A stretch of 64,000 nucleotides of DNA, taken from positions 575,926 through 639,925 of the forward strand of contig CACVBU010000508.1 in the NCBI GenBank assembly GCA_902728285.1, written 5' to 3'. Every line of letters starts with the position of its first letter. The stretch's first letter is position 1. The notes below the pieces were generated by a model. That model searched no databases. It was not told the DNA's origin and saw only the letters and a program-made list of their open reading frames with translations. Shown here one piece after another: positions 20,101 to 51,480 of the stretch. This DNA comes from Clytia hemisphaerica. Lineage: Eukaryota > Cnidaria > Hydrozoa > Leptothecata > Clytiidae. The translations under genes were made by a program, and so were the position numbers.

Positions 20101-23100
20101 AAAGTATTTACATACCTATTGATTACAAATGGGAATATATTGGAAGCGCAATCCATAACACAGAAAAGAATGGCCAGTTTTTCAGCATCCTCATGCAGAG
20201 TAAAGATGGAAGACATTTCTTGTACCTGGTTGACTGTAATGATTTTAACGATGATAAGATAATATCTCATCGCCATACCATCCCAATTTCTGACCTTTTA
20301 TTGTATGATCGAGACAAGTTCTTCACATTGAATCGAAAATGGTTTTTAGATTTTACCTCAAAGAAGGTATTTATTATTGATAGTGAGAAAAGAGTAAATA
20401 CTACTAGAAAAGCTGGAGTTTCTGCCGAGGAAAATTATGTCAACTCTGGAAGGATGACTGGCTTTGATTTTAATGGGAACAAAATATTCGCTTTCCCTAT
20501 TGTGAAGCAAGAAAAAGATTATCCTCATTACTGGCATATCGTTACACAATATTGTGCCTCCAAATTTCTTGTGGTCTGGTTACAGAATTTTGAAGTGGAG
20601 CTTTTTGATGCTACAGCTAATGGTATGATTCGGCTGAAAAAATTCCCGATAGCCTGTCCGATTGAATGCAGTCAATACGATAATGCATTTCGTATGATCA
20701 AAAGTTCGAGAAAACACTATCTGTCACGTAAATATTATGACGACGAAAAGAATTCTTATTTCATTGTGGTTTACGATCTGGACGCAGAAAAAACAATATT
20801 GAGCTACGAACATTCAGAATTAATTCAGTTTATTTACGCTTACGATATCAATGTGGAGACTAAAGAAGTGGCAACATGTAATTTTGGTGGTATTTCAAAA
20901 GCAACTTTGAAAGTATCGAAAATGTTGAAAAACGATTGATAATGAAAAATATCAGGAAAGAGATATAAAAAATGGAAGATTCAGATCGATTAAAAACATT
21001 CTGCTTTGATACGGACTTGTCGAAGTTTTCTCGAAATTACCTGTAAATTTATAATTTTATTAGTCAGCCCCGGTGACTCTTCAAATCGGTTCGACGATTT
21101 TTTTCCCGCTGGTCGTCGTCGTTAAGACTTTCATTTTAATTCCGATTTCGGATTATTTTCGGGAAACAGGATTTCGGGATTATTTAGCGCGCGAAAATAA
21201 TTTTTTCTTAGCAAGATAAAATAAGAAAAGAAAAAAACACATAACATAAAAAGAAGCCTTATAATTGATAATAAGAAAAAAAGAGAAGAGAAAAAAAATT
21301 CTTTTTTGCGTCATATCCAATAGTTAATAAAAGATGCTTTTGCATTGTAAATAAAGAGAGCTAATTATAGAGTAAGCATAGATGGAGCATAGAGGTATAA
21401 AGAAAGACAGGAGATGAATTTGTCGGTAATTGGTCGTTAAAGTCTTTTGATTTCTTTTATGTAATAAACCAAAAGAAATTCTAGGCTCGCCCGATGAAAT
21501 AGGACTTTTTAGTAGAACTCAAGTTTGCTGTGAACATTCTTACTATCAGCATCGAAGATTTCCAGCCTTCTAATATACGAGAATAAAATAAAATTTAGCT
21601 CCACGAAATAAGTTTGCGTTCAATTTTGTCATCCATTAAATTTTGTTTTGAAAAGATATTTTCTCAAGCCAGAAAATGAAAAGTTCTTTATAAGCACACA
21701 CAATTTCAGACCCAATTTGTAGACAAAAAGTCGCTGGAGAATTTTGGAGGTAAGTATTAAGCAATAGAGTTCACCTTGAAGAAAATGTTGATCGAAAAAT
21801 CTTGTCATTTGATGAAGGATTGCAAAGTTTACAGGCCCTTTTTTAATCCAAATATTTTCTTACACCAATGTCAGAAACAATGAATCTCGTCCCATTTTAT
21901 TTCCAACACTTAAGTTAGCCAATAAGATTTTTCCTATCAACAAAAGAGCTCATTAAAAATGCACGATATATGAGATTATGAGCATGCATACCTCGTAATA
22001 TTTCTAATCGTAGGGCGAGCATGGTTACAATAGCATACTTCTCCTGTTTCTTTATACCTCCATGGATGGAGAAAGTGAGTACTGTATATCAAAGAAAATT
22101 TTTTCATTCGAATAATGTTAAAAGTTATATACTACATGTAGCCTATTTCTTCTATCTGGGTCTTTTATTATTCTCATCTCATGACATGGAAAGAGTATAA
22201 CAACAACGGAATAAATCTTTTTCACCGACTTCTGCTTTGGATACGGATTCCACTATGCACTGCTCTGTTTTCTTCTGAACGTTTCGAGCAAATAGATACG
22301 TTCTTTCAAGCTGCTCAGATTTTAACAAACCAGATTTCTTATCTGTACTTCCTATTAATCATTCTAAGCCTTCTAAGCATTTTGGGCTGACTTTCCAGCG
22401 CAGCTGGTTTATTTAATTTCAAATCAGTTTATCAATTATAACATTTTGTCTCATTATGAGGATACTGTGTAAGTATTGTCCAACAAATATTTATAAAATA
22501 TTGAATGATTAAAGACACAGTGTCTCGCGAAAAAAGCGGATAAATTTTTATATTGTAAAGTAAAATCCTCAAAACTCATTATCTAAACTGGGCTTAGAAT
22601 AATTGAAATAAGATTACAATTATCTGTTCAATCAAATAGATATTCAATTCCTAAGAAAATTGAAAAGGTTTTTGAGACTGAAATATTAAGTATACGAGCA
22701 CGATAAAACTTGGCATAAATTATGAGGATTTTACAATATATAAAACTTTGTCCGCTTTTTTGGGACATACTGTCTACTTTGTTAAGTCTTTAATTGTCAA
22801 TAGACGATATCGGCTTAACATGAAAACTCAGATTTGACCTCCGAAAATTGCCCACAATGCTTTGCGCGGAAAAAAGTTCACGGTGAATTTTTTTTTACGC
22901 GCAAAGCATTGTGGGGAATTCTCGGGGGTCAAATCTGAGTTTTCATGCGAAGCCGATACCGTCTATTATGGTTATTCAGTTATAATTATAAGGTCGGTTT
23001 GTATAAGACATGTACATAGCTTATTTGTTTGGTACATTCGCTGGAGTTAGGTATTCGGTATTCGGGATTCGGGATTCGCATTCGGGATTCGAAAAAGCTC

Positions 23101-26100
23101 AATAAAAACTTAACGAAAAAAGATATTAACTTGAAATAAAAAACGGATGCAAGCACACATACTAAGGAATAAATCCCAATAAAAAAATTCAGAATATGAG
23201 CTCAGTTGTCACGTGACTATGGGAAATTCCCCTATTCGGGATTCAAATCATGTCAGGGACCTTTCTTCAAAAGCTCGCCAGTCGTCAGTAAATGGTTGAA
23301 TTGACTTCAAATAAAAAACGGATGCAAGTTCACATGTCAAGGAAGATATTCCAAAAAAATAAATTCAGAATATGAGCTTAGTTGTCATGTGACTACGGGA
23401 AATTCCCCTATTCGGGATTCAAATTATTTCAGGGACCTTTTTCAAAAGCTTACCAGTCGTCAGTAAATGGTTGAATTGACTTCAAATAAAAAACGGATGC
23501 AAGTTCACATGTCAAGGAAGATATTCCAAAAAAATAAATTCAGAATATGAGCTTAGTTGTCATGTGACTACGGGAAATTCCCCTATTCGGGATTCAAATT
23601 ATTTCAGGGACCTTTTTCAAAAGCTTACCAGTCATCAGGAAATGGTTGGATTGACTTCAAATAAAAAACGGATGCAAGTTCACATGTCAAGGAAAATATT
23701 CCAAAGAAAACCATTCAGAATATGAGTTTAGTTGTCACGTGACTATGGGAAATTCCCCTATTTGGGAGTTATTTCAATTTAGAGACTATTTTTATAAAGC
23801 TTACCAGTCATCAGGAAATGGTTGGATTGACTTCAAATAACAAACGGATGCAAGTTCACATATCTGGGAAGATATTCCAAAAAAAAATTATTCAGAATAT
23901 GAGCTTAGTTGTCACGTGACTATGGGAAATTCCCCTTTTTGGGAGTTATTTCAGTTTAGGGACCTTTTTTGAAAAGCTCATAAAAACTCAAGTAAGAAAG
24001 GTATCGACTTCAAATAACAAACGGATGCAAGTTCACATATCTGGGAAAATATTCCAAAGAAAACCATTCAGAATATGAGTTTAGTTGTCACGTGACTATG
24101 GGAAATTCCCCTTTTCAAGAGTTCAATTATTTTAGGGACCTTTCTTAAAAATGATTTGATTGACTTCAAATAACAAACGGATGCAAGTTCGCATGCTAAT
24201 GAACAAGTTCCAAAAAAAATAATTCAGAATATGAGCTTAGCTGTCACGTGACTATGGGAAATTCCCCTTTTTGGGAGTTATTTCAGTTTATGGACCTTTT
24301 TTGAAAAGCTCATAAAAACTCAAGGAAGAAAGGTATCGACTTCAAATAACAAACGGATGCAAGTTCACATATCTGGGAAAATATTCCAAAAAAAATTATT
24401 CAGAATATGAGCTTAGTTGTCACGTGACTATGGGAAATTCCCCTTTTCTAGAGTTCAATTATTTTAGGGACCTTTCTTAAAAATGATTTGATTGACTTCA
24501 AATAACAAACGGATGCAAGTTCGCATGCTAAGGAACAAATTCCAAAAAAAATAATTCAGAATATGAGCTTAGCTGTCACGTGACTATGGGAAATTCCACT
24601 TTTTGGGAGTTATTTCAGTTTATGGACCTTTTTTGAAAAGCTCATAAAACTCAAGGAAGAAAGGTATCGACTTCAAATAACAAACGGATGCAAGTTCACA
24701 TATCTGGGAAATATCCCAAAAAAATTATTCAGAATATGAGCTTAGTTGTCACGTGACTATGGAAATTCCCCTTTTCAAGAGTTCAATTATTTTAGGGACC
24801 TTTCTAAAAATGATTTGATTGACTTCAAATAACAAACGGATGCAAGTTCGCATGCTAAGGAACAAATTCCAAAAAAAATAATTCAGAATATGAGCTTAGC
24901 TGTCACGTGACTATGGGAAATTCCCCTTTTTGGGGATTTATTTCAGTTATGGACCTTTTTTGAAAAGCTCATAAAAACTCAAGGAAGAAAGGTATCGACT
25001 TCAAATAACAAACGGATGCAAGTTCACATATCTGGGAAAATATTCCAAAAAAAATTATTCAGAATATGAGCTTAGTTGTCACATGACTATGGGAAATTCC
25101 CCTTTTCAAGAGTTCAATTATTTTAGGGACCTTTCTTAAAAATGATTTGATTGACTTCAAATAACAAACGGATGCAAGTTCGCATGCTAAGGAACAAATT
25201 CCAAAAAAAATAATTCAGAATATGAGCTTAGCTGTCACGTGACTATGGGAAATTCCACTTTTTGGGAGTTATTTCAGTTTATGGACCTTTTTTGAAAAGC
25301 TCATAAAAACTCAAGGAAGAAAGGTATCGACTTCAAATAACAAACGGATGCAAGTTCACATATCTGGGAAAATATCCCAAAAAAAATTATTCAGAATATG
25401 AGCTTAGTTGTCACGTGACTATGGGAAATTCCCCTTTTCAAGAGTTCAATTATTTTAGGGACCTTTCTTAAAAATGATTTGATTGACTTCAAATAACAAA
25501 CGGATGCAAGTTCGCATGCTAAGGAACAAATTCCAAAAAAATAATTCAGAATATGAGCTTAGCTGTCACGTGACTATGGGAAATTCCCCTTTTTGGGATT
25601 TATTTCAGTTTATGGACCTTTTTTGAAAAGCTCATAAAAACTCAAGGAAGAAAGGTATCGACTTCAAATAACAAACGGATGCAAGTTCACATATCTGGGA
25701 AAATATTCCAAAAAAATTATTCAGAATATGAGCTTAGTTGTCACGTGACTATGGGAAATTCCCCTTTTCAAGAGTTCAATTATTTTAGGGACCTTTCTTA
25801 AAAATGATTTGATTGACTTCAAATAACAAACGGATGGAAGTTCGCATGCTAAGGAACAATCCAAAAAAAATTATTCAGAATATGAGCTTAGCTGTCAGGT
25901 GACTATGGGAAATTCCCCTTTTGGGAGTTATTTCAGTTTATGGACCTTTTTTGAAAAGCTCATAAAAACTCAAGGAAGAAAGGTATCGACTTCAAATAAC
26001 AAACGGATGCAAGTTCACATATCAAGAAAAATATTCCAAAAAAATTATTCAGAATATAAGCTTAGTTGTCACGTGACTATTGGAAATTCCCCTATTCAAG

Positions 26101-29100
26101 AGTTCAATTATTTAGGGACCTTTCTTAAAAATGATTTGATTGACTTCAAATAACAAACGGATGCAAGTTCGCATGCTAATGAACAAGTTCCAAAAAAAAT
26201 AATTCAGAATATGAGCTTAGCTGTCACGTGACTATGGGAAATTCCCCTTTTTGGGAGTTATTTCAGTTTATGGACCTTTTTTGAAAAGCTCATAAAAACT
26301 CAAGGAAGAAAGTATCGACTTCAAATAACAAACGGATGCAAGTTCACATATCTGGGAAAATATTCCAAAAAAAATTATTCAGAATATGAGCTTAGTTGTC
26401 ACGTGACTATGGGAAATTCCCCTTTTCAAGAGTTCAATTATTTTAGGGACCTTTCTTAAAAATGATTTGATTGACTTCAAATAACAAACGGATGCAAGTT
26501 CGCATGCTAAGGAACAAATTCCAAAAAAAATAATTCAGAATATGAGCTTAGCTGTCACGTGACTATGGGAAATTCCCCTTTTTGGGATTTATTTCAGTTT
26601 ATGGACCTTTTTTGAAAAGCTCATAAAAACTCAAGGAAGAAAGGTATCGACTTCAAATAACAAACGGATGCAAGTTCACATATCTGGGAAAATATTCCAA
26701 AAAAATTATTCAGAATATGAGCTTAGTTGTCACGTGACTATGGGAAATTCCCCTTTTCAAGAGTTCAATTATTTTAGGGACCTTTCTTAAAAATGATTTG
26801 ATTGACTTCAAATAACAAACGGATGGAAGTTCGCATGCTAAGGAACAAATCCAAAAAAAATTATTCAGAATATGAGCTTAGCTGTCAGGTGACTATGGGA
26901 AATTCCCCTTTTTGGGAGTTATTTCAGTTTATGGACCTTTTTTGAAAAGCTCATAAAAACTCAAGGAAGAAAGGTATCGACTTCAAATAACAAACGGATG
27001 CAAGTTCACATATCAAGAAAAATATTCCAAAAAAAATTATTCAGAATATAAGCTTAGTTGTCACGTGACTATTGGAAATTCCCCTATTCAAGAGTTCAAT
27101 TATTTTAGGGACCTTTCTTAAAAATGATTTGATTGACTTCAAATAACAAACGGATGCAAGTTCGCATGCTAATGAACAAGTTCCAAAAAAAATAATTCAG
27201 AATATGAGCTTAGCTGTCACGTGACTATGGGAAATTCCCCTTTTTGGGAGTTATTTCAGTTTATGGACCTTTTTTGAAAAGCTCATAAAAACTCAAGGAA
27301 GAAAGGTATCGACTTCAAATAACAAACGGATGCAAGTTCACATATCTGGGAAAATATTCCAAAAAAAATTATTCAGAATATGAGCTTAGTTGTCACGTGA
27401 CTATGGGAAATTCCCCTTTTCTAGAGTTCAATTATTTTAGGGACCTTTCTTAAAAATGATTTGATTGACTTCAAATAACAAACGGATGCAAGTTCGCATG
27501 CTAAGGAGCAAATTCCAAAAAAAATAATTCAGAATATGAGCTTAGCTGTCACGTGACTATGGGAAATTCCCCTTTTTGGGAGTTATTTCAGTTTATGGAC
27601 CTTTTTTGAAAAGCTCATAAAAACTCAAGGAAGAAAGGTATCGACTTCAAATAACAAACGGATGCAAGTTCACATATCTGGGAAAATATTCCAAAAAAAA
27701 TTATTCAGAATATGAGCTTAGTTGTCACGTGACTATGGGAAATTCCCCTTTTCAAGAGTTCAATTATTTTAGGGACCTTTCTTAAAATGATTTGATTGAC
27801 TTCAAATAACAAACGGATGCAAGTTCGCATGCTAAGGAACAAATTCCAAAAAAAATAATTCAGAATATGAGCTTAGCTGTCACGTGACTATGGGAAATTC
27901 CCCTTTTTGGGATTTATTTCAGTTTATGGACCTTTTTTGAAAAGCTCATAAAAAACTCAAGGAAGAAAAGGTATCGACTTCAAATAACAAACGGATGCAA
28001 GTTCACATATCTGGGAAAATATTCCAAAAAAAAAAATATCAGAATATGAGCTTAGTTTCACGTGACTATGGGAAATTCCCCTTTTCAAGAGTTCAATTAT
28101 TTTAGGGACCTTTCTTAAAAATGATTTGATTGACTTCAAATAACAAACGGATGGAAGTTCGCATGCTAAGGAACAAATCCAAAAAAAATTATTCAGAATA
28201 TGAGCTTAGCTGTCAGGTGACTATGGGAAATTCCCCTTTTTGGGAGTTATTTCAGTTTATGGACCTTTTTTGAAAAGCTCATAAAAACTCAAGGAAGAAA
28301 GGTATCGACTTCAAATAACAAACGGATGCAAGTTCACATATCAAGAAAAATATTCCAAAAAAAATTATTCAGAATATAAGCTTAGTTGTCACGTGACTAT
28401 GGGAAATTCCCCTATTCAAGAGTTCAATTATTTTAGGGACCTTTCTTAAAAATGATTTGATTGACTTCAAATAACAAACGGATGCAAGTTCGCATGCTAA
28501 GGAACAAATTCCAAAAAAAATAATTCAGAATATGAGCTTAGTTGTCACGTGACTATGGGAAATTCCCCTTTTTGGGAGTTACATATTTAAGTTTAAGGAT
28601 TTTTTTTGAAAAGCTCATAAAAACTCAAGTAAGAAAGGTATTGACTTCAAATAACAAAGGGATGCAAGTTCATATATCTGGGTAAATATTCCAAAAATAA
28701 TTATTCAGAATATGAGCTTAGTTGTCACGTGACTATGGGAAATTCCCCTATTTGGGAGTTATTTTAATTTTTAGACCTTTTTTAAAAAGCTTACCAGTCA
28801 TCAGAAAATGGTTGGATTGACTTCAAATAAAAAACGGATGCAAGTTCACATGTCAAGGAAAGTATTCCAAAATTAATTATTCAAAGCATGAGCTTAGTTG
28901 TCACCCCTTTTTGGGAGTTATTTCAATTTAGAGACCTTTTTTAAAAGATTACCATGGATTGATCATGGATTGACTTCATTAGCGTTTTCTTATTTTTCTT
29001 TGAATGACATTCATGTTTCTTTTATTAGAACACCTAAATTTTGATTGAGGCTGAATGTTCTTATTTTTTCAACCATTTTCAGCCTTAGATGCTCTTGTTA

Positions 29101-32100
29101 ATGTTTCTATATATGGGTCCAAATAACAAAAGAAATGCATTGTCTCGAGTGAACCGTAATAAACCCAACAGGTAATGAACGTTGTTATAACGTCCAAACA
29201 ATGTTGTCTCAACATCAGAACGTCAAATCTTTCAAATTTTCCCATAGATCATTTTACCCCCTTTTGTGTGTCATACATCATCATCTATTTCATCCAGTAT
29301 TATTCTGTCTCATTTTTCTCTACGCCCAAGCTACCTTTTTAACGCCCCTTCCTTCTCTTCATATACACGCATAGACCCTCCACTAAATTAAGCAACTAAT
29401 CACTTACCATAAGTAAACTAGGTCACAGTGTGGATCTAAACCACACTGAAACGACCGCCTTCCATCACGCATCACGCTCGCGAAAGAGCGCACGCACATT
29501 ATTAACGCCTACATGTCATCTCCAGTACATTTTAGATTATTCATTAAAAACAGATTACAAATTAGTCATTCTTCATGTCTCGATTATTCAATTCCGAATA
29601 AAAGACATTCAGGGAAAAAAAAGAGAAACACCTGGGTAATCTAGTTAAAAAAACCGAAAGTAAATGGCAGACAAAGTAATGAGCCAAGGCAAAACGAGAT
29701 TAGCGTACCACTATGAAAGAAAAATAATACATAATAAATTCTTGGTGGTGACTTAAATTCTTAATAAGGATGATTTCACAACTTATTGGTAATAACAACT
29801 TATTGTTAATAATTGCTGAAAATTAAGCAACTGTGAACCGGAAAAACTCCCTCCGAACCTGAAAAAACTCCCTGTCAATCAAACATAACAACTGCCAATC
29901 AACAACTACAATCGGAGAGTTGAATAAATAGAAGATGGGCAACTGCCAATCAAATTACAGCGAACAAATAAGAATAGCGAAAGCAAAACATTACGTCTTC
30001 CTAAAAGTGGGGGGCGTACGGGCCTTCGTAATACCGATATACCGATCACTTTTTTTCTCAATTACCGATATACCGATAAATTTTTCGTTCAAATACCGAT
30101 ACCGGTCAATTTTTCCCAATTTTTCAGGTACTTATCTCCCGGAGGGGGGAATTAGGCAAATATGGGTGCTGGGTACGTGTGGACGATAAAGGTTGGGTTT
30201 GTCACCATCCAAAGTCTCTATGACGATTACCAAACAGTAGCGTGGTGGGTAGATCAAGGATGGGCAGGTAAAAGTAGAATTTTGGCTTAAGGCGCCTTGT
30301 ATGCTTATTCTGGCGCCCATTTTTTGGTTGCATTCGTATACCAAAAATTGAAGTTAAAATTCAGGTCATTTTAGAAACATTTAGGAAATACGCGAGCGAA
30401 GCGAGCAAGAAAAAATTGCGACATTGCTCATCGAGATGGATTGAGACACCCCTGTGTCACAGACCCAGTGGACCCCCCACCCCGGTGGAAAAATAGGCCA
30501 AAAAATCGTCCCCGGTGGAAAAATATCCTACAATTTCAACCCCACTGCGAAATTGCTCTATGATTTTATCCCCATTGAAAACTGAATGTAAAAAATTGCA
30601 CTCCAAAACCATCCCCACTGGAATTTTCGAGCTGGAAACAATAAATTTTCTATCCCCATTGGCATTTTGATAGAAATTTTCATCCCCACTGAGGGAAAAA
30701 GTTCTACCGGGGCACTGAGACAGGGGTGTATTGAGTGAAGCCAATTACAGTATAATGACATTGAACAAAAAAGAACAAAAAACACAACCATGGTCATGCT
30801 TTCTCTATTAGTCAGTGGAAAAAGTTAACTCTGTTTGACGCGATTTTTTTCCAAAACAGAGCTTAAATTTGACCAAAAGTTTAGCAAGATGCTAAAAATT
30901 GAATAAGAGAACGGAAAACCATCAAGGAACCTCGAACTTTCATCGAAAATGGGAGCTTATCGAGTGATAGAATGTCGAATAGTAGAAAGTAACGAATAAA
31001 GATACAAATTTAATACTCTTTAATAATCTCTAGATCAAAAAATTGAAGGAAGCTAGTGCGTGCGAATGAAACAAGAAAAAAATTGTGAGTTTTTGTTTTG
31101 AATATTGTTTTCACCAAATTGGTCGTGGGGCGCAGTTAGATCTCCCTTCAAAAATCGTCTTATAACTTTATTGCGAGCGAAGGGAGCAAAAAAAAATCAT
31201 GATTTTTCAAGTTATTTCTGGTCTTTGGGCGCAATTTAAAGCGCATTTAGGGTAATTTTAAGAGTTGGGCGTTCAAAACTCCACTTGGGGAGGCGTGACC
31301 CCCTGCCAAAACGCCAAAATAGATCGTTTAGAGAGCGTCAACTGTATTCACGGCAGGAAATGTGTCAAGCAGACCCCTGGCTGAGACTCTTGCCTTATGA
31401 AAATTGCAGCCATGATTCTTAAAATTGGCGTCTCCGAGTGTTCCTTAATTTGTACTAATTTACGTGTGAGTGCTTAGAACATATCGTTCATATATTCACA
31501 TGGAAAAGGAGGCTTTGGCCGTATGGACAATTTTTTAAAGTCATCCGCAACCATATAGCATAAACCCTAAAAAAGCGATGAGAATTTGATACTTATCAAG
31601 AAGAATTCGAAGAGGCTAGTGCGAGCGAAGCGAGCAAATAATTTGAGATATTTTGTTTTAAATATTGTGTATAGGAGCGCAATGGCTCATGATCTTCGAT
31701 ACCAAGGAGGTGGTCGATACCGATAGTTGACCAAAAATACCGAAATACCGAGATAAAAAAGGTCTCTTACCGATACCGAGATGGTCTTAAAATACCGATT
31801 ACCGATCAATTTTTTCCTCTAATACCGATTTACCGATCTAAAAAAAGGCCAATACCGATGTACCGATATCCCGTACGCCCCATAAAACATTACGTCTTCC
31901 TAAAACATCAAACAATAGAATTACAAGGACCACAGAACGACCCTTGTAAACGTGCCTCAATTCTGGCATGAAAATATCATCATCCTTTTTGAAAATTGCT
32001 GTAGAAGAAGAAGGACATCACTTTGAAAAAATGTTAGATGGTACGAATATATCTTATTTTAGACTATCCCAATTAAGGACCTTTACATCAACAAATAGAG

Positions 32101-35100
32101 TAATCAAAATATTTTACGAAACCATTTAATTAGAGCTACTTTTAAAATAACTACTGAGCTTGAGGATGTAGTATCTTAGATAATATTGATACTACATGGC
32201 CCGCTGATCTACGAGAAGTTATTGAATTAAAGGGTCGAAAACTTTATCTGAGTAGATCTGAGTCAATACTGATGACCTCCTAAAAGCTCTTCAATCTAAC
32301 AAAACGCAGCAGATGATCCTTAAAATCCATGATATACAACAACAAACATTATCTGATATAAAAACATTTTCTTAAAAAATCTCAATAATCCCAGAAGACA
32401 ATGGGTTGTAAACCATAAAACTATATTATCTGTTGTACCAAATCATAGAAATAAAAAACTATTTCATTCACATCTCGATTTTTTGACTTCTTTGACCTTC
32501 AGAAATCTGACTTCGTTATTTACATTATCTCCCTGTTACAGCTTAAGGTCTCTATTTCTTTATAAATCTTATCGGCAGTACTCTGACCTAATATATTTTT
32601 TTTTGTTTTTGTTTTTGTTTTCTTTTTTTCATCGAAATAACTCCTAAAAAGGGGAATTTCCCATAGTCACGTGACAACTAAGCTCATATTCTGAATTATT
32701 TTTTTGGAATTTGTTCCTTAGCATGTGAACTTGCATCCCTTTGTTATTTGAAGTCAATACCTTTCTTACTTGAGTTTTTATGAGCTTTTCAAAAAAGGTC
32801 CCTAAACTGAAATAACTCCCAAAAAGGGGAATTTCCCATAGTCACGTGACAACTAAGCTCATATTCTGAATTTTCTATTTTGGAATGTTTTTCTTGACAT
32901 GTGAACTTGCATCCGTTTGTTATTTGAAGTCAATCCAACCATTTCCTGATGACTGGTAAGCTTTTGAAAAAGGTCCCTGAAATAATTTGAAACCCGAATA
33001 GGGGAATTTCCCGTAGTCACTTGACAATTAAGCTCATATTCTGAATTATTTCTTTCGGAATATCTTTCTTGACATGGGAACTTGCATCCGTTTGTTATTT
33101 GAAATCAATCTAACAATTTCCTGATGACTGGTAAGCTTTTGAAAAAGGTCCCTGAAATAATTTGAATCCCGAATAGGGGAATTTCCCGTAGTCACGTGAT
33201 AACTAAGCTCATATTCTGGACTAATTTTTTTGGAATATTTTTCCAGATATGTAAACTTGCATCGGTTTGTTATTTGAAGTCGATATCTTTCTTCCTTGAG
33301 TTTTTATGAGCTTTTCAAAAAGGTCCCTAAAATGAAATAACTCCCAAAAAGGGGAATTTCCCATAGTCACGTGACAACTTGGCTCATATTCTGAATAATT
33401 TTTTTTTGGAATATTTTCCCAGATATGTGAACTTGCATCCGTTTGTTATTTGAAGTCGATACCTTTCTTACTTGAGTTTTTATGAGCTTTTCAAAAAAGG
33501 TCCCTAAACTGAAATAACTCCCAAAAAGGGGAATTTCCCATAGTCACGTGACAACTAAGCTCATATTCTGAATAATTATTTTTGGAATATTTTCCCAGAT
33601 ATGTGAACTTGCATTCGTTTGTTATTTGAAGTCGATACCTTTCTTGCTTGAGTTTTTATGAGCTTTTCAAAAAAGGTCCCTAAACTGAAATAACTCCCAA
33701 AAAGGGGAATTTCCGATAGTCACGTGACAACTAAGCTCATATTCTGAATTTTCTATTTTGGAATGTTTTTCTTGACATGTGAACTTGCATCCGTTTGTTA
33801 TTTGAAGTCAATCCAACCATTTCCTGATGACTGGTAAGCTTTTGAAAAAGGTCCCTGAAATAATTTGAAACCCGAATAGGGGAATTTCCCGTAGTCACTT
33901 GACAATTAATCTCATATTCTGAATTATTTCTTTCGGAATATCTTTCTTGACATGGGAACTTGCATCCGTTTGTTATTTGAAATCAATCTAACAATTTCCT
34001 GATGACTGGTAAGCTTTTGAAAAAGGTCCCTGAAATAATTTGAATCCCGAATAGGGGAATTTCCCGTAGTCACGTGATAACTAAGCTCATATTCTGGACT
34101 AATTTTTTTGGAATATTTTTCCAGATATGTAAACTTGCATCGGTTTGTTATTTGAAGTCGATACCTTTCTTCCTTGAGTTTTTATGAGCTTTTCAAAAAG
34201 GTCCCTAAAATGAAATAACTCCCAAAAAGGGGAATTTCCCATAGTCACGTGACAACTAAGCTCATATTCTGAATAATTTTTTTTTGGAATATTTTCCCAG
34301 ATATGTGAACTTGCATCCGTTTGTTATTTGAAGTCGATACCTTTCTTCCTTGAGTTTTTATGAGCTTTTCAAAAAGGTCCATAAACTGAAGTAACTCCAA
34401 AAAGGGGAATTTCCCTAGTCACGTGACAGCTAAGCTCATATTCTGAATTATTTTTTTTGGAATTTGTTCCTTAGCATGCGAACTTGCATCCGTTTGTTAT
34501 TTGAAGTCAATCAAATCATTTTTAAGAAAGGTCCCTAAAATAATTGAACTCTTGAAAAGGGGAATTTCCCATAGTCACGTGACAACTAAGCTCATATTCT
34601 GAATAATTTTTTTGGAATATTTTCCTAGATATGTGAACTTGCATCCGTTTGTTATTTGAAGTCGATACCTTTCTTCCTTGAGTTTTTATGAGCTTTTCAA
34701 AAAAGGTCCATAAACTGAAATAACTCCCAAAAAGGGGAATTTCCCATAGTCATGTGACAGCTAAGCTCATATTCTGAATTATTTTTTTTGGAACTTGTTC
34801 CTTAGCATGCCAACTTGCATCCGTTTGTTATTTTGAAGTCAATCAAATCATTTTTAAGAAAGGTCCCTAAAATAATTGAACTCTTTAAAAGGGGAATTTC
34901 CCATAGTCACGTGACAACTAAGCTCATATTCTGAATAATTTTTTTTGGAATCTTTTCCCAGATATGTGAACTTGCATCCGTTTGTTATTTGAAGTCGATA
35001 CCTTTCTTACTTGAGTTTTTATGAGCTTTTCAAAAAAGGTCCATAAACTGAAATAACTCCCAAAAAGGGGAATTTCCCATAGTCACGTGACAGCTAAGCT

Positions 35101-38100
35101 CATATTCTGAATTATTTTTTTTGGAACTTGTTCCTTAGCATGCGAACTTGCATCCGTTTGTTATTTGAAGTCAATCAAATCATTTTAAGAAAGGTCCCTA
35201 AAATAATTGAACTCTTGAAAAGGGGAATTTCCCATAGTCACGCGACAACTAAGCTCATATTCTGAATAATTTTTTTTGGAATATTTTCCCAGATATGTGA
35301 ACTTGCATGGCATACCGGATAAGTGGGATGGGGGAACCTGGGAACCTAAAGTGGGAACCTAAATGAACACCTGAAAAGTGGGATGGGGGAACCTAAGTGG
35401 GAACCTAAATGAACACCGGAAAAGTGGGATGGGGGAACCTAAGTGGGAACCTAAATGAACACCGGAAAAGTGGGATGGGGGAACCTAAGTGGGAACCTAA
35501 ATGAACACCGGAAAAGTGGGATGGGGAACCTAAGTGGGAACCTAAATGAACACCGGAAAAGTGGGATGGGGAAACCTAAGTGGGAACCTAAATGAACACC
35601 GGAAAAGTGGGATGGGGGAACCTAAGTGGGAATCTAAGTTGTTTAATTATTAATAGAATTGAAATATTTTTCTTTAGAAACAAATACATAAGCGAAAAAT
35701 AAGACTTGCTCGATAGCAAGTCTTATCGTAGTTTAAGAAGAATTCCTTTATGTTTAAATAAATAGGTCTATTGAAATGGCGATTTTGTGTTTACTTTTCA
35801 AATTTTGAAAATTTTGAAAAGATGTGCCCACATTTTTTTACCTGAAAGTGGGATGGGGGAACCGGGAACCTAAAGTGGGAACCTAATTTGTTATTATTAT
35901 TATTTTTCTTTAAAACAAATACATAAAGATAAGAAAGATATTATATGCAAGGAAAGAAAAAACCTTTTATCATAATAAGAACACCAGTTATTTACTTTTT
36001 ACATTACGGTTCGCAAACAATAATGTTGAAAATAAAACAAAGGGAATTTATTTATTCAATTAGCTCAAAAAAGCATGTTTATTTATCAGCAGTTTTATAG
36101 TGCATCTTTTTGAAAGGTTCTTTTTAGTAAATTGACTTAATTGACTTTAAACTTAAAACTTTAAACCGTCATATCATCAAATCTAGAAGGAATTAGAAGT
36201 TCGTTCATAGCTCGATGGATAACTTAGACCTTCTTCTTTCTTTTGCACGGATCTAATTTGCTTGAATACAGAATCTAGTAAAACATTATTTACGATCTAG
36301 TTTTTGTTCACTCTTGATGGGGGGGGCGTACGGGGTTTCTGATTTCTGAAATTCCGAGCATTTTTGACCTGATTTCCGATACAATTCCGCAAAAATATTT
36401 CACTAATTCCGATACCGAATTTTTTTCTGTAGATAATTTTCACTTAAAGAAAAACTTGAATAAAAAAAGGAAGAAACTGTGGGAAAAGAATATTTTTGCC
36501 ACATACAGTACAACTATTACACCCGCGGACACCGCACGCTGCAAAGAGGTGGTACGACACAGAGACCAGAGGACACAAATTTCCTCTATATATAACCCCC
36601 TACCTCAAAAAAGGAAGTTTGTAAAAGATAATGCGAGCGAAGCGAGCGCGAAAATTGTCCTTGACTTTTGCTTTAAAATCCACCCTTTTTCCCTAAAAAA
36701 GTGTTGAGAAGAGTAGTTTTCCCTGACTTTTAGAATGGAAAGAGAATATTCTTTCCTGACCAAAAACGTCAAATTTTTCGTGTTGTAGTAAAATAATTAT
36801 TTCAAAAATAACCCGGCCAGCTTTACAATAGTCAAAGTGTGTTGACTTTTAAAAAAATAAAAAATAGAGATTCAAAGATTGACTGAAAACCATCAAATTC
36901 AAGGCATTCTGGAAAAAAAGCTCCCTGACTTTTCCCTGACTTTTGAAAAATTTTGCGAAAACTCCCTGACTTTTCCAGGTTTTCCCTGACTTTTTCAAAA
37001 AACAACCCATTTTCAGGTTTTCCCTGACCGCTGGGAACCCTGTTATAGAACTGGATTTTCATCGTTCCGAATGATAGGTGTTGATTTGACTCTCAGTAAA
37101 ATATTAACGCCTTATTATAAAAATGTTGACCTTTTCACAAAGCCCTCGAGGCATCGTGCCATTCATCGAACCAGCTTTGGTCCGTTTTGAAAAAGCTTCA
37201 ATTTTTCACTGCTTACAAAAGGTCCGCGAATGAAATAAGATTGTGTTGTGGAGCAATCTATACCTATACCCATCATATGTGCGCCCGAACGCCGCTAGGA
37301 TCTAGCGCGCGCTTGTGCTTGACGTCATTGATTCAGAAAGCGTCTTTTGTGGATAGAAATTAGTGAGGTTAAGTCCCAAATTGGTAAAATCACGACCATG
37401 AAAATTAAACAGGCTAGTGAGTTTCAACCAATCAAATTTCGTATTTTTTCGTCCGTCATCGTGATTATCCTGGTATGCTTAACCTCAGTATTATATCCGA
37501 AGCACACAATCTGATACCGAAAAACCGAAACTAAAGCTCTTCAGACCAAGTTTCCGCAGTAAAAAAAGTCATTTTTCCGAAACCGAAGTCTTTTTGGATT
37601 CCGAAATACCGAAGTGTTTTGACGTGACTACCGAAATTCCGCACAAAAACAAGCCCATTTCCGCAATACCGAAATCTCGTACGCCCCCCACTTGATGCAA
37701 TACACATTGTTTTTTATTAGCAGCTCCAATTTCGGGTCAGGGCTGGGGTCGCTTAGCATTTAACGGATTCTAGCTCGTTTTTCTTTCTGTACCAACCAAA
37801 CAGTACAGCGTGTGAATACACTTCATTAATTAAAAATGTTTGATAGTAAAATAGACATATTGCACGGCTTGCCACGTTTCCATACACATAAGCATAGATC
37901 CACGGGGGGGGGGGGGGTTGCACTCAAGGTAAACGACCTACCGTACGTGCAGCCCTTTTTTCCAAGCTACCCAAAGTACACTGTAAGGGTGGAAATTAGC
38001 AAAATGAGAATAAGTGCACTCTAAGGGTTTAAAATTTGGTCAAAGCCAGTCCGGCTTTTAGAATTTCATCCGAACAAGTGTCACGTTTTAACACTGGGTA

Positions 38101-41100
38101 AATTTTGGAACATCAAATATGTCCATCCCTATCAGGATCTGTTCTAGAACATGTTGACCAAAAAAAAGATCTAGGAGTGATAATCGATAGTGACCTGACC
38201 TTTGAAGCCCATATATTCAGTAAAATCAAGAAAGCTAACTCTATCGTTGGCTTGATTAGCAGGAGCTTCGAATTTCTCTCACCAGATATGTTTCGAACGC
38301 TTTTCATTGCATTTGTCAGACCCCATTTGGAAATATGCACATGTAGTATGGTCTCCAAGACTAATCAAACATATCAATGCAATCGAGGGCGTCCAACGAA
38401 GAGCTACAAGGCTAGTTAGTTGCTATAGAAACTACTCATACGAAGATCGGCTACGACTCATCAATCTACCTAGCCTAAAGACCAGGCGGCAAGTTGGTGA
38501 TATGGTGGAAGTTTTCAAGAACCTCCACATTTATGACGAGTCTATAAGATCAGAGAAATTTTTACCTCGAACACGACCACGACGTCAGCATGATTACGAG
38601 CTTCAAAGGAACTTTGCTAATGACGGTATGAGAGGCTACCAAAGCAACTCTCTTTTTACAGAAGTGTGAAACCTTGGAAATGATCTAGAAGAAGATATTG
38701 TTGAAGCACCATCCTTACAAGTCTCCAAAGAGCTTTTGATAAAAGAAAGGGAGAAAAAACTTTATAAAATGTAAAATCAAAAGTTCTGTTTCATAGGAGT
38801 CAATAGACGTGCGAAATATATTGCTAGATAAAAAAAAAATAAAAAATAAAAAATAAAAAAAAAATAAAAAAAGGTTCCCACTTTAGGTTCCCCCACCCAC
38901 TTTTCCGGTGTTCATTTAGGTTCCCACTTAGGTCCCCCATCCCACTTTTCCGTTGTTCATTTAGGTTCCCACTTAGGTTCCCCCATCCCACTTTCCGGTG
39001 TCATTTAGGTTCCCACTTAGGTCCCCCATCCCACTTTTCCGGTTGTTCATTAGGTTCCCCCGCCCCTTTCTCTTTGTTCATTTAGGTTCCCACTTAGGTC
39101 CCCCCATCCCACTTTTCGGTGTTCATTTAGGTTTCCACTTAGGTTCCCCCATCCCACTTTTCAGGGTTCATTTAGGTCCCACTTTAGGTTCCCAGGTCCC
39201 CGTCCCACTTATCCGGTATGCCAACTTGCATCCGTTTGTTTATGAAGTCGATACCTTTCTTACTTGAGTTTTTATGAGCTTTTCAAAAAAAGGTCCCTAA
39301 ACTGAAATAACTCCCAAAAAGGGGAATTCCCATAGTCACGTGACAACTAAGCTCATATTCTGAATATTTTTTTTGGAATATCTTCCCAGATGTGAAACTT
39401 GCATCCGTTGTTATTTGAAGTCAATCCAACCATTTCCTGATGACTGGTAAGCTTTATAAAAATAGTCTCTAAATTGAAATAACTCCCAAATAGGGGAATT
39501 TCCCATAGTCACGTGACAACTAAACTCATATTATGAATTGTTTTCTTTGGAAATTTTCCTTGACATGTGAACTTGCATCCGTTTGTTATTTGAAGTCAAT
39601 CCAACCATTTCCTGATGACTGGTAAGCTTTTTGAAAAAGGTCCCTGAAATATATTTGAAACCCGAATAGGGGAATTTCCCGTAGTCACTTGACAATTAAT
39701 CTCATATTCTGAATTATTTCTTTCGGAATATCTTTCTTGACATGGGAACTTGCATCCGTTGTTATTTGAAATCAATCTAACAATTTCCTGATGACTGGTA
39801 AGCTTTTGAAAAAGGTCCCTGAAATAATTTGAATCCCGAATAGGGGAATTTCCCGTAGTCACGTGATAACTAAGCTCATATTCTGGACTAATTTTTTTGG
39901 AAATTTTTCCAGATATGTAAACTTGCATCGGTTTGTTATTTGAAGTCGATACCTTTCTTCTTGAGTTTTTATGAGCTTTTCAAAAAGGGCCCTAAAATGA
40001 AATAACTCCCCAAAAAGGGGAATTCCCCATAGTCACGTGACAACTAAGCTCATATTTGAATAATTTTTTTTTGGAATATTTTCCCAGATATGTGAACTTG
40101 CATCCGTTTGTTATTTGAAGTCGATACCTTTCTTCCTTGAGTTTTATGAGCTTTTCAAAAAAGGTCCATAAACTGAAGTAACTCCCAAAAAGGGGAATTT
40201 CCATAGTCACGTGACAGCTAAGCTCATATTCTGAATTATTTTTTTTGGAATTTGTTCCTTAGCATGCGAACTTGCATCCGTTTGTTATTTGAAGTCAATC
40301 AAATCATTTTAAGAAAGGTCCCTAAAATAATTGAACTCTTGAAAAGGGGAATTTCCCATAGTCACGTGACAACTAAGCTCATATTCTGAATAATTTTTTT
40401 TGGAATATTTTCCTAGATATGTGAACTTGCATCCGTTTGTTATTTGAAGTCGATACCTTTCTTCCTTGAGTTTTTATGAGCTTTTCAAAAAAGGTCCATA
40501 AACTGAAATAACTCCCAAAAAGGGGAATTTCCCATAGTCATGTGACAGCTAAGCTCATATTCTGAATTATTTTTTTTGGAACTTGTTCCTTAGCATGCCA
40601 ACTTGCATCCGTTTGTTATTTTGAAGTCAATCAAATCATTTTTAAGAAAGGTCCCTAAAATAATTGAACTCTTTAAAAGGGGAATTTCCCATAGTCACGT
40701 GACAACTAAGCTCATATTCTGAATAATTTTTTTTGGAATCTTTTCCCAGATATGTGAACTTGCATCCGTTTGTTATTTGAAGTCGATACCTTTCTTACTT
40801 GAGTTTTTATGAGCTTTTCAAAAAAGGTCCATAAACTGAAATAACTCCCAAAAAGGGGAATTTCCCATAGTCACGTGACAGCTAAGCTCATATTCTGAAT
40901 TATTTTTTTTGGAACTTGTTCCTTAGCATGCGAACTTGCATCCGTTTGTTATTTGAAGTCAATCAAATCATTTTTAAGAAAGGTCCCTAAAATAATTGAA
41001 CTCTTGAAAAGGGGAATTTCCCATAGTCACGCGACAACTAAGCTCATATTCTGAATAATTTTTTTTGGAATATTTTCCCAGATATGTGAACTTGCATCCG

Positions 41101-44100
41101 TTTGTTTATGAAGTCGATACCTTTCTTACTTGAGTTTTTATGAGCTTTTCAAAAAAGGTCCCTAAACTGAAATAACTCCCAAAAAGGGGAATTTCCCATA
41201 GTCACGTGACAACTAAGCTCATATTCTGAATATTTTTTTTTGGAATATCTTCCCAGATATGTGAACTTGCATCCGTTTGTTATTTGAAGTCAATCCAACC
41301 ATTTCCTGATGACTGGTAAGCTTTATAAAAAATAGTCTCTAAATTGAAATAACTCCCAATAGGGGAATTTCCCATAGTCACGTGACAACTAAACTCATAT
41401 TATGAATTGTTTTTCTTTGGAATATTTTCCTTGACATGTGAACTTGCATCCGTTTTTTATTTGAAGTCAATCCAACCATTTCCTGATGACTGGTAAGCTT
41501 TTGAAAAAGGTCCCTGAAATAATTTGAATCCCGAATAGGGGAATTTCCCGTAGTCACATGACAACTAAGCTCATATTCTGAATTTATTTTTTTGGAATAT
41601 CTTCCTTGACATTGAACTAGCATCCGTTTTTTATTTTAAGTCAATTCAACCATTTACTGACGACTGGCGAGCTTTTGAAGAAAGGTCCCTGACATGATTT
41701 GAATCCCGAATAGGGGAATTTCCCATAGTCACGTGACAACTGAGCTCATATTCTGAATTTTTTTTATTGGGATTTATTCCTTAGTATGTGTGCTTGCATC
41801 CGTTTTTCATTTCAAGTTAATATCTTTTTTCGTTAAGTTTTTATTGAGCTTTTTCGAATCCCGAATGCGAATCCCGAATCCCGAATACCGAATACCTAAC
41901 TCCAGCGAATCTACCTATTTGTTTTTATATGTAAACGATAAAAAAACAATCGAAAACAAACGCCCATTCAGTCAATATACATTTCTTTTGGTATCAAGGT
42001 AACAAGAAGTACTGAAACGTCAAAAAGGAAGAAATTTTGTGTTTATTTTCATCTTTCTGGTGAGTCGTATGAGGCTGTTTGCTGCTCTTGAAAAAACAAA
42101 ACAGAGTATCGATTTTTCATGCTTCATAAATGACGCAGACCCTTCTCTCAATTCGTATTCAACATTTTTTTACACAGTTTCTAAGTCAGTGGTCTGCACT
42201 ATAAAACCATAATTTTTTTTCTTTTAAGAACAATTTAATAAAAACGACAACGAGGCTCAAAATCGCCAAAAATAAGAGCATTTTAAAAGCAATGCTGAGC
42301 CTGAAGCAATTTAGGGGTCAAAGTAGTAAAAATTGGGTAAAACGCCTAAAATACCTCAATTACACCCTATAAATAAGAACATGATAAGAATAATTTGAGG
42401 CACAAAGTGCCAAAAAAAATTAGGAACAGCCGAACTTCAGCAAAATATTTACTGGTTCTTATAAAAAGGAGTGTATTGTCAAAAAAGAGCCAAACTGAGA
42501 AAAACGAGCACTCTTCTGTATTGCTGACTCGTTTTAACAATAGCAATGCTTTTGTAAGCTCAAGCATTTTTTAGTCATCGAATCATAACTGGCTTAACTT
42601 TAAACTTACCGTGATATAAGAATTTGCACCAACCAACAATGGATCAGTACGTATGGGAGGGACAAACTCATTACTAAATGTTACGTTCGCTTCCATATTT
42701 TATCACCTCCTTTGCTTGAGAACTTGTGACCTGAAAAGGAAACCAATGTAATACCTAGATGACCATTATGCGTTTACCATGGCCATTTCACAGTCGAAAT
42801 GGATCATGGTAATCGGACTGATTGCGCCTCCATAACGGCTTTCTGTGGCTAGATGCGAAAATCTTTAAAAAATTTCAAAACTTTTGACAAAAGTAAGTCG
42901 TTATTAGCGCGCAGTGGTCCTGATTACCCATTACGCTTTGTGACTGTGAAATGACCTATGCTCTGCTCTAAGGGATACGTAGAAAGTCTTACGGAGCCAT
43001 GGCCTCTAAAGTGTATACGTGTTATCGCAGAGTAAGATTATGTTACACTTTGTCACCAGACATAAATCCATAGACCGGCGCCACTTTTTTACACCTTAAT
43101 GGTAGTTTTCAGCCAAAAAGAGAAAATACCCAAAAACTTCGTGCTCGCTTCGCTTGCTTCATTTTTACAAAGATATTTTACTTTTAAAAGGGGGGCGCCA
43201 AAAATAAAATCGCCAAAACTTCCAAAATTGCCAAAGCCTCCCGGATTTGGTCGACCCACCACGGTACTGCTCTAGACTAATAAAAACCCTTTCATTTTTT
43301 CATTCACCGATAAGGTACTTAAATGATTTTGGATAGAGGAGCTTTAATAAATTGAAAGGAGTTAAGACGTACCAACATTCCAGAGAAGAGTGCATTTATC
43401 AGGTAATAAAACCAAATTGGACGAAGTCAAACTCTTGAATTCAACTATAGGGCCCCTGAAAAACAAGAAACAATTCATTTCTGGATGAAGGTCAATAATG
43501 CAAAAAAAGAAAAGAAAAAAGAAGAATCATTCGAAAAAGCTTAAATTTCTGAAAGAATGACTAAAATTATCACCAAGCTTTTCAGAAGCACGTGCTCTAA
43601 TAAAAATTGGGCTCTTCCAGGAAAAATTTTGAATATGAGGGGGGTGGAGGATATAAAATGTTGGAGATTTTACCCCCGGACATTGTGAGTTTTCACCCCC
43701 GGACAACGGATCTCACCCTCCGGACAAGCATAAGTTGACCCCCGTACATTCGAAATCACCCTCTAATCAGAGAAAATTCGCCCCTAAAACAAGGCACATT
43801 TTGCAGATTTTCACTACCCCCGGACAAAAATATCCAATATATCCTCCACCCCCCTCATGTACAAAGATTTTCTGGAAGAGCCTATTTCAATGAACCAACC
43901 TATTGTTTAAAGGGATTTAATGAGACAAATTCCTAATCACCTTCTTCATTTCCTATAGGAAGTCAAAAATGTTATTCATCTTTCGATATCAAAACACAAT
44001 AAACCTGTTGAAGAATGGTATCTGGACTTCAAAAGCTTCAAAAGAACTTTTCATCTGTTCTGCTATTTGTATTTGTATCATAATAGTTAGTCTGTTTTGA

Positions 44101-51192: not shown

Positions 51193-51249
51193 AAAGTGCT
51201 CTCTCTTTACTTTCCTTCCGAACTACTGTAAGCCAATTCTTCATTTCCC

Positions 51250-51480
51250 CTTAAAAATACAAACAACCTCCGAGGTAAATTTCCTACAAAAATACAAAAA
51301 ACTTCCCAGGTAATTTTCCTTCAAAAATACAAAGAACACCCCGGGTAATTTTCTTTCAAAAATAAAAAGAACATCCCGGGTAGTTTTTCCTTCAAAAATA
51401 CAAAGAACTCCCCAGGTAATTTTCCTTCACAAGTACAAAGAGTTCCCCCATGTAATTTACTTTCAAAAATACAACGATGA
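51250..51480. repeat. Minisatellite, unit about 37 bp
   Basis: About six imperfect units of TTTTCCTTCAAAAATACAAA plus GAACTCCCCAGGTAA. The 61-aa minus-strand frame with KENYPG/KEKLPG repeats is only this array. Confidence 0.8.

Follow-up and report, generated by a model that had tools for sequence, protein, structure and literature searches.

Satellite DNA origin and spread is an old question, and the window analyzed here, a stretch of 64,000 nucleotides from Clytia hemisphaerica, raises it in a concrete form: can an array of long tandem repeats move and grow as part of a transposon? The initial annotation had described a foldback transposon of 18.9 kb at this locus, with satellite-like arms and an exact 9-bp target duplication, and had proposed that a whole array had moved or grown inside it, perhaps by a route not yet described. 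The analyses confirmed a real mobile DNA element with two long satellite-like arms.

Architecture of the 18.9-kb element

The foldback element in the window spans positions 23031–41915 (18,885 bp) and is flanked on both sides by the 9-mer TATTTGTTT (Table 1). The two flanking copies match exactly, as had been annotated, and the probability of a chance match between two random 9-mers from the window is 5.3e-5. The left and right ends of the element are 98.3% identical across the first 300 bp. Including the terminal domain, the left arm covers 23031–28954 (5.9 kb). The right arm covers 32634–41915, of which about 5.4 kb is arm sequence because a separate 3.9-kb element at 35309–39222 splits it. 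The arms accordingly have the annotated lengths of 5.4–5.9 kb and consist of one tandem family in opposite orientation. The annotated extent of 18.9 kb was also correct; the second foldback element within the right arm had been overlooked. Subtracting this nested insertion together with a single copy of its target duplication leaves a window element of 14,962 bp. No recognized gene was found in the window copy (C355), and segments of its core recur in C228, C928, C545, C177, C592, C753, C250, and C380.

Table 1. Positions of the element, its arms and the nested element within the window.
Feature	Position	Strand	Remarks
9-bp target duplication TATTTGTTT, left copy	23022–23030	.	Exact match to right copy
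Left terminal domain	23031–23124	+	GGTACATTCGCTGGAG and short ATTCGGG repeats
Left arm array	23125–28954	+	34 monomers delimited, mostly alternating 176/156
Core, no recognized gene	28955–32633	.	Parts common to other copies
Right arm array, inner part	32634–35308	-	Inverted
Nested duplication AACTTGCAT, left copy	35300–35308	.	Inside a monomer
Nested foldback element	35309–39222	.	Ends GGCATACCGGATAAGTGGGA; own 9-bp duplication
Nested element arms, 46-bp minisatellite	35340–35637; inverted 38872–39193		
Nested duplication AACTTGCAT, right copy	39223–39231	.	
Right arm array, outer part	39232–41821	-	Inverted; best match 23300–25799, 90.6%
Right terminal domain	41822–41915	-	Reverse-complemented end = GGTAGATTCGCTGGAG
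9-bp target duplication TATTTGTTT, right copy	41916–41924	.	Exact

Ends of the nested family occur 456 times in the genome and not once in the reversed control. An exact 9-bp duplication was present in 9 of the 10 end pairs checked, which were taken in listing order, all with perfect ends, excluding ends without a partner and a C94 cluster that was ambiguous. Of the two RT-like ORFs in the nested element, one gave a Pfam match to zf-U11-48K below the cut-off (E 0.064) and the other gave none.

Copies and target duplications across the genome

A genome search with the terminal sequence for copies and their flanking 9-mers, as suggested in the initial annotation, recovered 77 element ends in the 417-Mb genome (end pattern with up to 3 mismatches) and none with the reversed control. 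The end pairs examined number 24, a count that excludes the 31 of the 77 ends listed without a partner and includes the C472 pair, which a second end pattern recovered. An exact 9-bp duplication flanks 15 of the 24 pairs, an exact 8-bp duplication flanks one, and partial matches flank three (two with 8/9 and one with 7/9); the duplication is absent in C547, C592, C228, C187, and C75. Target duplications of 8–11 bp, as in the Mutator superfamily, are present in most of the 24 pairs and sit at unrelated sites in different copies. Copy size among the pairs ranges from 0.7 to 25 kb. Two core classes lie behind an identical arm type, together with derivatives whose cores are deleted or different; C41 and C816 resemble relatives of the 22–25 kb class with internal deletions.

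The flanks of C187 are inverted to each other (1.4 kb, 97.7%), and C228 shares its right flank with the window copy but has a different left flank; some copies may therefore be misjoined. That the whole structure arose from misassembly, or from two inverted insertions unrelated to each other, is nevertheless extremely improbable given that exact duplications flank 15 pairs at different sites and that copies have cores in common. In a search for the empty site via the left flank, the window copy and two common repeats (query 187–446, MITE) matched among the 40 of 1349 candidates scored.

The satellite arms and their higher-order repeats

The arm repeat, annotated as a monomer of about 165 bp and a dimer of 331 bp, is in fact an alternation of 176- and 156-bp monomers with a dimer of 332 bp. 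In the left arm, TRF found 14.9 copies of the 332-bp unit with 96% match (23816–28749). This arm is organized as a dimer higher-order repeat (0.934 at lag 2, 0.726 at lag 1), and the left arm of C41 as a pentamer higher-order repeat (0.944 at lag 5, 0.78–0.79 at the other lags up to 9). The satellite appears to have multiplied separately in different copies, as dimers in the left arm of the window copy and as pentamers in C41. Together with the 77 ends and the exact duplications in 15 of 24 pairs, these copy-specific repeats in two copies bear out the proposal that a whole array has moved or grown inside a transposon.

Arm length varies within and between copies, as in the foldback class: from 6 to 34 monomers were delimited per arm across 12 copies, and 0 and 2 in the 1.2-kb C547. 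When monomers were compared by position between copies, identity was 0.974 for monomer 1, 0.962 for monomer 2 and 0.89–0.83 for monomers 3–6, a fall that arises partly because arms with differing monomer numbers lose register; the right arms of C355 and C228 are not independent in this comparison. The monomers and the terminal domain have a 24-bp motif in common. With up to 4 mismatches, the motif occurs 35 times in the left arm and 25 times, inverted, in the right arm, and is absent from the core and the remainder of the window.

The satellite adjoins the ends in this family, as a satellite or minisatellite does in Rehavkus elements. Of 217 monomer matches, 100 were listed, and 96 of these are no more than 10 kb away from a transposon end; one (C585) is on a contig without an end and three (C27) are 20 kb from an end. 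Among the matches listed, the 176/156-bp satellite hardly occurs away from these elements. The monomers do resemble an ordinary 332-bp dimeric satellite, and the C585 and C27 matches would fit a transposon that had captured a pre-existing array. Such capture of a foreign satellite is thought very unlikely because the listed matches adjoin ends, and the motif common to the monomers and the terminal domain also argues against it.

Large copies, their coding region and related elements

The initial annotation had also suggested looking for a relative with a transposase between the same ends. Three copies of 22–25 kb contain a transposase-like segment. In C187 and C558 it lies between the same ends as those of the window copy, in C472 between similar ones. 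In C187 and C558, the segment, DDE-like by its motifs, precedes USP- and Ulp1-type protease domains, and the reading frames are interrupted. The USP domain scored 73.3 bits in C187 and 28.5 bits in C558 (cut-off 23.9). The Ulp1 domain scored 30.1 and 34.7 bits, respectively (cut-off 20.7), when the C-terminal part was scanned alone, and was unlisted when the entire 830-aa ORF was scanned. The DDE segment matched the Pfam MULE model below the cut-off in one of nine members (E 0.098, 13.5 bits, cut-off 27.6). Its hhalign comparison with the MULE domains of this genome gave 30% probability over 47 columns, limited to the surroundings of the second Asp and of the C-x2-H motif, and a PDB search with the 830-aa ORF gave no match at E 0.01. 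The family is probably Mutator/Rehavkus-like.

C472 (23,951 bp) is flanked by the exact duplication AAACAAAAC and contains transposase matches at 64 and 72% identity. Its ends are similar to the family ends (92% over 60 bp), and the single arm read contains an unrelated 188-bp repeat. The two ends are 95.3% identical to each other over only 64 bp and differ beyond this across the 180 bp that were read at the left end. The foldback form of C472 is only putative because its ends diverge after 64 bp.

A FLYWCH-type MULE of this genome, rather than the giant gene, might move the elements, since one such gene sits within copy C33 and MULEs make 8–11 bp duplications. This is unlikely: the giant transposase-like segment lies between the ends in three copies, whereas the FLYWCH gene is flanked by its own inverted 15-bp minisatellite arms (L051:2989–5974). 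The FLYWCH-MULE was set aside as autonomous partner because these arms make a separate element nested in C33 likely.

Long inverted ends built of tandem repeats, as in foldback-type transposons, characterize the family (C472 lies outside this result). The window element is probably a non-autonomous foldback-type cut-and-paste DNA transposon that keeps its ends constant while its arms generate satellite arrays. The product of the large-copy gene, probably a Mutator/Rehavkus-like DDE transposase, would recognize the terminal domain, may also recognize the 24-bp motif recurring in the monomers, and would mobilize copies in trans. The outer end and the first two monomers would be held constant by selection for mobility. 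Further inward, unequal exchange or replication slippage may build higher-order repeats from the monomers, independently from copy to copy and from arm to arm, and the element would thereby take an expanding satellite array with it to new locations.

Satellite arms are already known in Tetris and Rehavkus-1_TC, so that the suggestion of an undescribed route is not supported. According to the available portion of its report, Tetris of Drosophila virilis carries inverted ends with repeats of ~220 bp, generates target duplications of 8–10 bp and was the source of a satellite; a 37-bp stretch is present in both its terminal domain and its repeats, comparable to the 24-bp motif here, and its repeats are suspected to grow by unequal exchange (PMC4079207). 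The same portion reports long arrays outside the element, whereas nearly all listed matches here adjoin an end, and no autonomous relative, whereas three copies here have a transposase-like segment (PMC4079207). The inverted ends of Rehavkus-1_TC, from Tribolium, contain a satellite with a 164-bp unit (PMC10218199). In the accessible parts of their descriptions, Rehavkus elements resemble the present family in the 9-bp duplication, satellite unit length and, probably, a MULE-related transposase, but Rehavkus-1_TC is 9.5 kb long, compared with the wide size range here, and Rehavkus has a PHD finger, with no mention there of USP or Ulp1 (PMC10218199, PMC6446971). Tm1 (Meloidogyne) and Muta1 (Aedes), of the Mutator/Foldback type, share duplications of 8–10 bp, inverted ends that contain tandem repeats and a Mutator-type transposase, a type only probable here; as far as the excerpts go, their repeat units are 12–15 bp and the Muta1 transposase has 504 aa (PMC3169594, PMC5225508). 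KI-MULEs of plants are Mutator-type elements with an Ulp1-like protease domain but are non-TIR elements, and the source text at hand mentions neither satellite arms nor a USP domain (PMC2528002).

It is quite possible, if short of probable, that the element is merely another Rehavkus or FB-type element, new only for the species. The 9-bp duplications on record for Rehavkus-1_TC and Rehavkus, the satellite-like repeats within or next to their ends, and the structural resemblance of Tetris and Tm1 favor this reading. No PHD finger was found in the scanned ORFs, with the C187 and C558 frames broken and ORFs such as C187 9574–10167 outside the scan; the USP domain goes unmentioned for Rehavkus and FB-type families in the accessible parts of their descriptions, and C472 bears another repeat in the arm read. 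No description of USP together with a Mutator-type transposase was recognized among the papers listed by the literature searches. A tentative and rather doubtful extension is that these giant (about 22–25 kb) foldback transposons form a separate group with a diverged DDE-type transposase and ubiquitin-/SUMO-type proteases, in which the ends (60–120 bp) are conserved and the arm satellite is replaced between lineages, making them a standing source of satellite families that are new and already dispersed.

Relative to known satellite-armed elements, the copy-specific growth, the size and the protease-bearing gene appear to be new. The larger copies connect foldback elements with a gene region bearing USP and Ulp1 proteases. 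One genome seems to show successive steps side by side, from short arms through dimer and pentamer arms to a relative with another satellite, in the arm read, behind similar ends, and the birth of a satellite can therefore be studied with datable insertions.

Insertion sites and genomic copies

The outer element spans 18,885 bp of the window (copy C355; copies are named after the host-genome contigs that carry them), and the two 9-mers and inverted ends from which the initial annotation had recognised a foldback transposon were located exactly where it had placed them. The genome (417 Mb, 951 contigs) was searched with the terminal 28 bp at up to 3 mismatches, which returned 77 matches (37 forward and 40 reverse) and none for the control. 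These ends resolved into 23 converging pairs on the same contig and 31 single ends; a second end pattern added the C472 pair, giving 24 pairs in all. The paired duplications expected genome-wide of such a transposon were found: 15 of the 24 pairs are flanked by an exact 9-bp duplication (C355, C753, C928, C41, C545, C250, C380, C177, C33, C154, C796, C869, C782, C564 at 1761265 and C472), with a different sequence at each site. The probability that two random 9-mers of the window agree is 5.3e-5. Eight of the nine letters match at C564 (472808) and C780 and seven at C558, C712 carries an exact 8-mer duplication, and no target duplication was seen at the other five of the 24 pairs (C547, C592, C228, C187 and C75). 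The element has inserted at many sites with duplications.

C228 matches C355 at ∼98% in the right flank, in the nested element and in part of the core, and differs from it in the left flank; it is probably a duplicate or stems from the second haplotype, the repeat having been either rearranged or misjoined. C187 is bordered on its two sides by a 1.4-kb stretch in opposite orientations (97.7% identity), doubled in tandem on the left (flanking stretches L058 and L059); this arrangement reflects either duplication with inversion or a fault of the assembly.

Positions of features in the window and of genomic relatives of the giant transposase-like domain
Feature	Position	Remark
Left arm of outer element	23031-28954	
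Right arm of outer element	32634-41915	split by nested element
Nested element	35309-39222	
Palindromic MITE, ∼169 bp	22799-22967	adjoins left end; more than 30 other genome places among the matches listed
Segment of the common core	30011-31881	ends GGGGCGTACGGG / CCCGTACGCCCC; 22-bp repeat AAAACATTACGTCTTCCTAAAA at each side; end motif recurs at 36323, within nested element
Presumed 3′ end remnant of a non-LTR retrotransposon	38102-38872	within nested element; RT-like ORFs (no RT match in a Pfam scan) and A-rich tail
ORFs presumably resembling an ionotropic glutamate receptor gene	3442-4320, 7307-7888	
35-bp tandem repeat	51249-51474	right flank
TTCCAGGACTT-like repeat	51035, 57501, 60024	right flank
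Open frame, 829 aa	61371-63857	coiled-coil appearance
Domain relative	C597:505634	
Domain relative	C883:1079331	
Domain relative	C197:1633352	
Domain relative	C759:10253	C472-type end at 10253; domain fragment at 19450

Repeat arrays of the arms

The arms consist of 176- and 156-bp monomers. With split monomers included and half of each copy taken as the search span per arm, 6–15 monomers were delimited in 20 of 26 arms (13 copies); the counts outside this range belong to C355 (34 and 30), C41 left (23), C228 right (18) and C547 (0 and 2). Lag identities, computed for C355, C41, C753 and C187, show that the pattern of the arrays is copy-specific. In the left arm of C355 the monomers follow a dimer pattern, with identities of 0.726 and 0.934 at lags 1 and 2. 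Those in the left arm of C41 recur as pentamers (0.944 at lag 5 and 0.958 at lag 10; 0.77–0.79 at other lags up to 12), a pattern absent from the lag identities of the C41 right arm. Only weak periods occur in the right arm of C355 (0.787, 0.832 and 0.845 at lags 1, 2 and 11), and the lag identities of the C187 arms contain no dimer- or pentamer-like period. The high values of C753 (left, 0.943 at lag 6 from 2 pairs; right, 0.916 at lag 9 from 6 pairs) come from too few pairs to judge.

Among 325 monomers of the 13 copies, mean between-copy identity is 0.974 and 0.962 for monomers 1 and 2 and 0.886, 0.870, 0.839 and 0.828 for monomers 3 to 6, a drop that stems partly from loss of register; neighbouring monomers within one arm are 0.80 identical. 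A 45-bp monomer pattern matched the genome 217 times (control, 0). For 96 of the 100 matches listed, the distance to a known end is less than 10 kb; the other four are on C585, a contig without an end (one), and on C27, 20 kb from an end (three). To judge from the matches listed, the arm satellite appears not to be one of the host genome's general satellites.

A 24-bp motif of the terminal domain, searched at up to 4 mismatches, has 35 occurrences in the left arm and 25 inverted ones in the right; at this threshold neither the core nor the remaining window contains it. The Galileo transposase is described, in excerpts of the sources, as binding several sites within its long ends (PMC3688188; quoted in PMC4079207). 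The repeated motif may likewise be a putative transposase binding site.

Conserved ends, divergent cores and transposase-like genes

The right end of C472 matches ours at 91.7% over the 60 terminal bp, and its arm is built from a 188-bp repeat (375-bp dimer) with no match to our dimer. The two C472 ends agree at 95.3% over 64 bp and then diverge, which argues against a complete foldback structure; on the left, the 180 bp read beyond the end contain only a weak 47-bp match, and no array was seen there. Four more distant ends were compared over 500 bp each. C564 and C106 share ∼120 terminal bp with ours at 81–82%, together with short motifs, and their inner sequence has diverged; C75 has ∼65 bp in common, and in C712 our satellite is present behind a ∼250-bp insertion. 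The ends are therefore better kept than the arms.

Two core classes lie behind the same arms. Ours, in which no gene was recognised, is common in part to C228, C177, C928, C545, C592, C753, C250 and C380; it measures 3.3–3.7 kb in C355, C228, C928 and C545 and is shorter or longer in the rest. The second, of 18–20 kb, is found in C187 and C558, mostly 94–99% identical in aligned pieces, and C41 and C816 look like versions of it that have lost internal sequence.

C187 and C558 contain long ORFs, all on one strand, with acidic repeats in the N-terminal part and a segment bearing FFDASG, ITDYS and C-x2-H motifs, from which we take it to be a DDE transposase. Two protease domains follow from Pfam: a USP type (UCH, 73.3 bits in C187 and 28.5 in C558; cut-off 23.9) and an Ulp1 type (30.1 and 34.7 bits; cut-off 20.7) detected in a separate scan of the C-terminal part and not listed for the C187 ORF scanned in full. 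What we assume to be the USP Cys and His and the Ulp1 His, Asp and Gln-Cys motifs are all readable in C187; in C558 the USP His motif falls in a disturbed stretch and the others are readable. Of the 26 genome matches of the DDE segment, some fall in single open frames of great length (C597, 3,818 aa; C883, 2,111 aa; C197, 1,731 aa). Two matches, at 64 and 72% identity, lie inside C472, whose ends at 2294201 and 2318151 are 23,951 bp apart and which has AAACAAAAC exactly at both flanks. Elements with a transposase-like gene therefore exist between the same ends (C187 and C558, with interrupted frames) or similar ones (C472).

A nested foldback element and the relation to known families

The nested element is bounded by separate inverted ends, GGCATACCGGATAAGTGGGA, and flanked by a 9-bp duplication of its own, AACTTGCAT; its arms consist of a 46-bp minisatellite. 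The window thus holds one foldback element within the arm of another. Its family has 456 ends genome-wide (reversed control, 0). Ten pairs were checked in listing order among the first 100 of these places, skipping unpaired ends and an ambiguous cluster on C94; all ten have perfect ends, nine an exact 9-bp duplication and the remaining one an 8-bp duplication. A further copy, on contig C228, has CAAATATAT at both flanks. In C33, a FLYWCH-domain MULE gene lies between inverted 15-bp minisatellite arms (2989-5974 of stretch L051), nested in a copy of the outer element; it is possibly a third foldback-like family.

The 9-bp duplication and the arms of the outer element are consistent with Mutator/Foldback and Rehavkus elements. 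The DDE segment is weakly linked by sequence to MULE transposases (Pfam MULE E-value 0.098, in 1 of 9 members; hhalign probability 30%). Because this link is weak, the element was not filed under Rehavkus. Elements of this kind are already known, to judge from excerpts on Tetris (PMC4079207), Rehavkus-1_TC (PMC10218199), Rehavkus (PMC6446971), and Tm1 and Muta1 (PMC3169594, PMC5225508); the accessible part of a recent survey gives arthropod MULEs of up to 10.0 kb with inverted ends of up to 1,193 bp (PMC13359780).

Common ends unite the copies that carry the transposase-like gene and those that lack it. The giant gene would mobilise copies in trans, the recurrent 24-bp motif would serve in binding, and the arrays would grow through unequal exchange or slippage.
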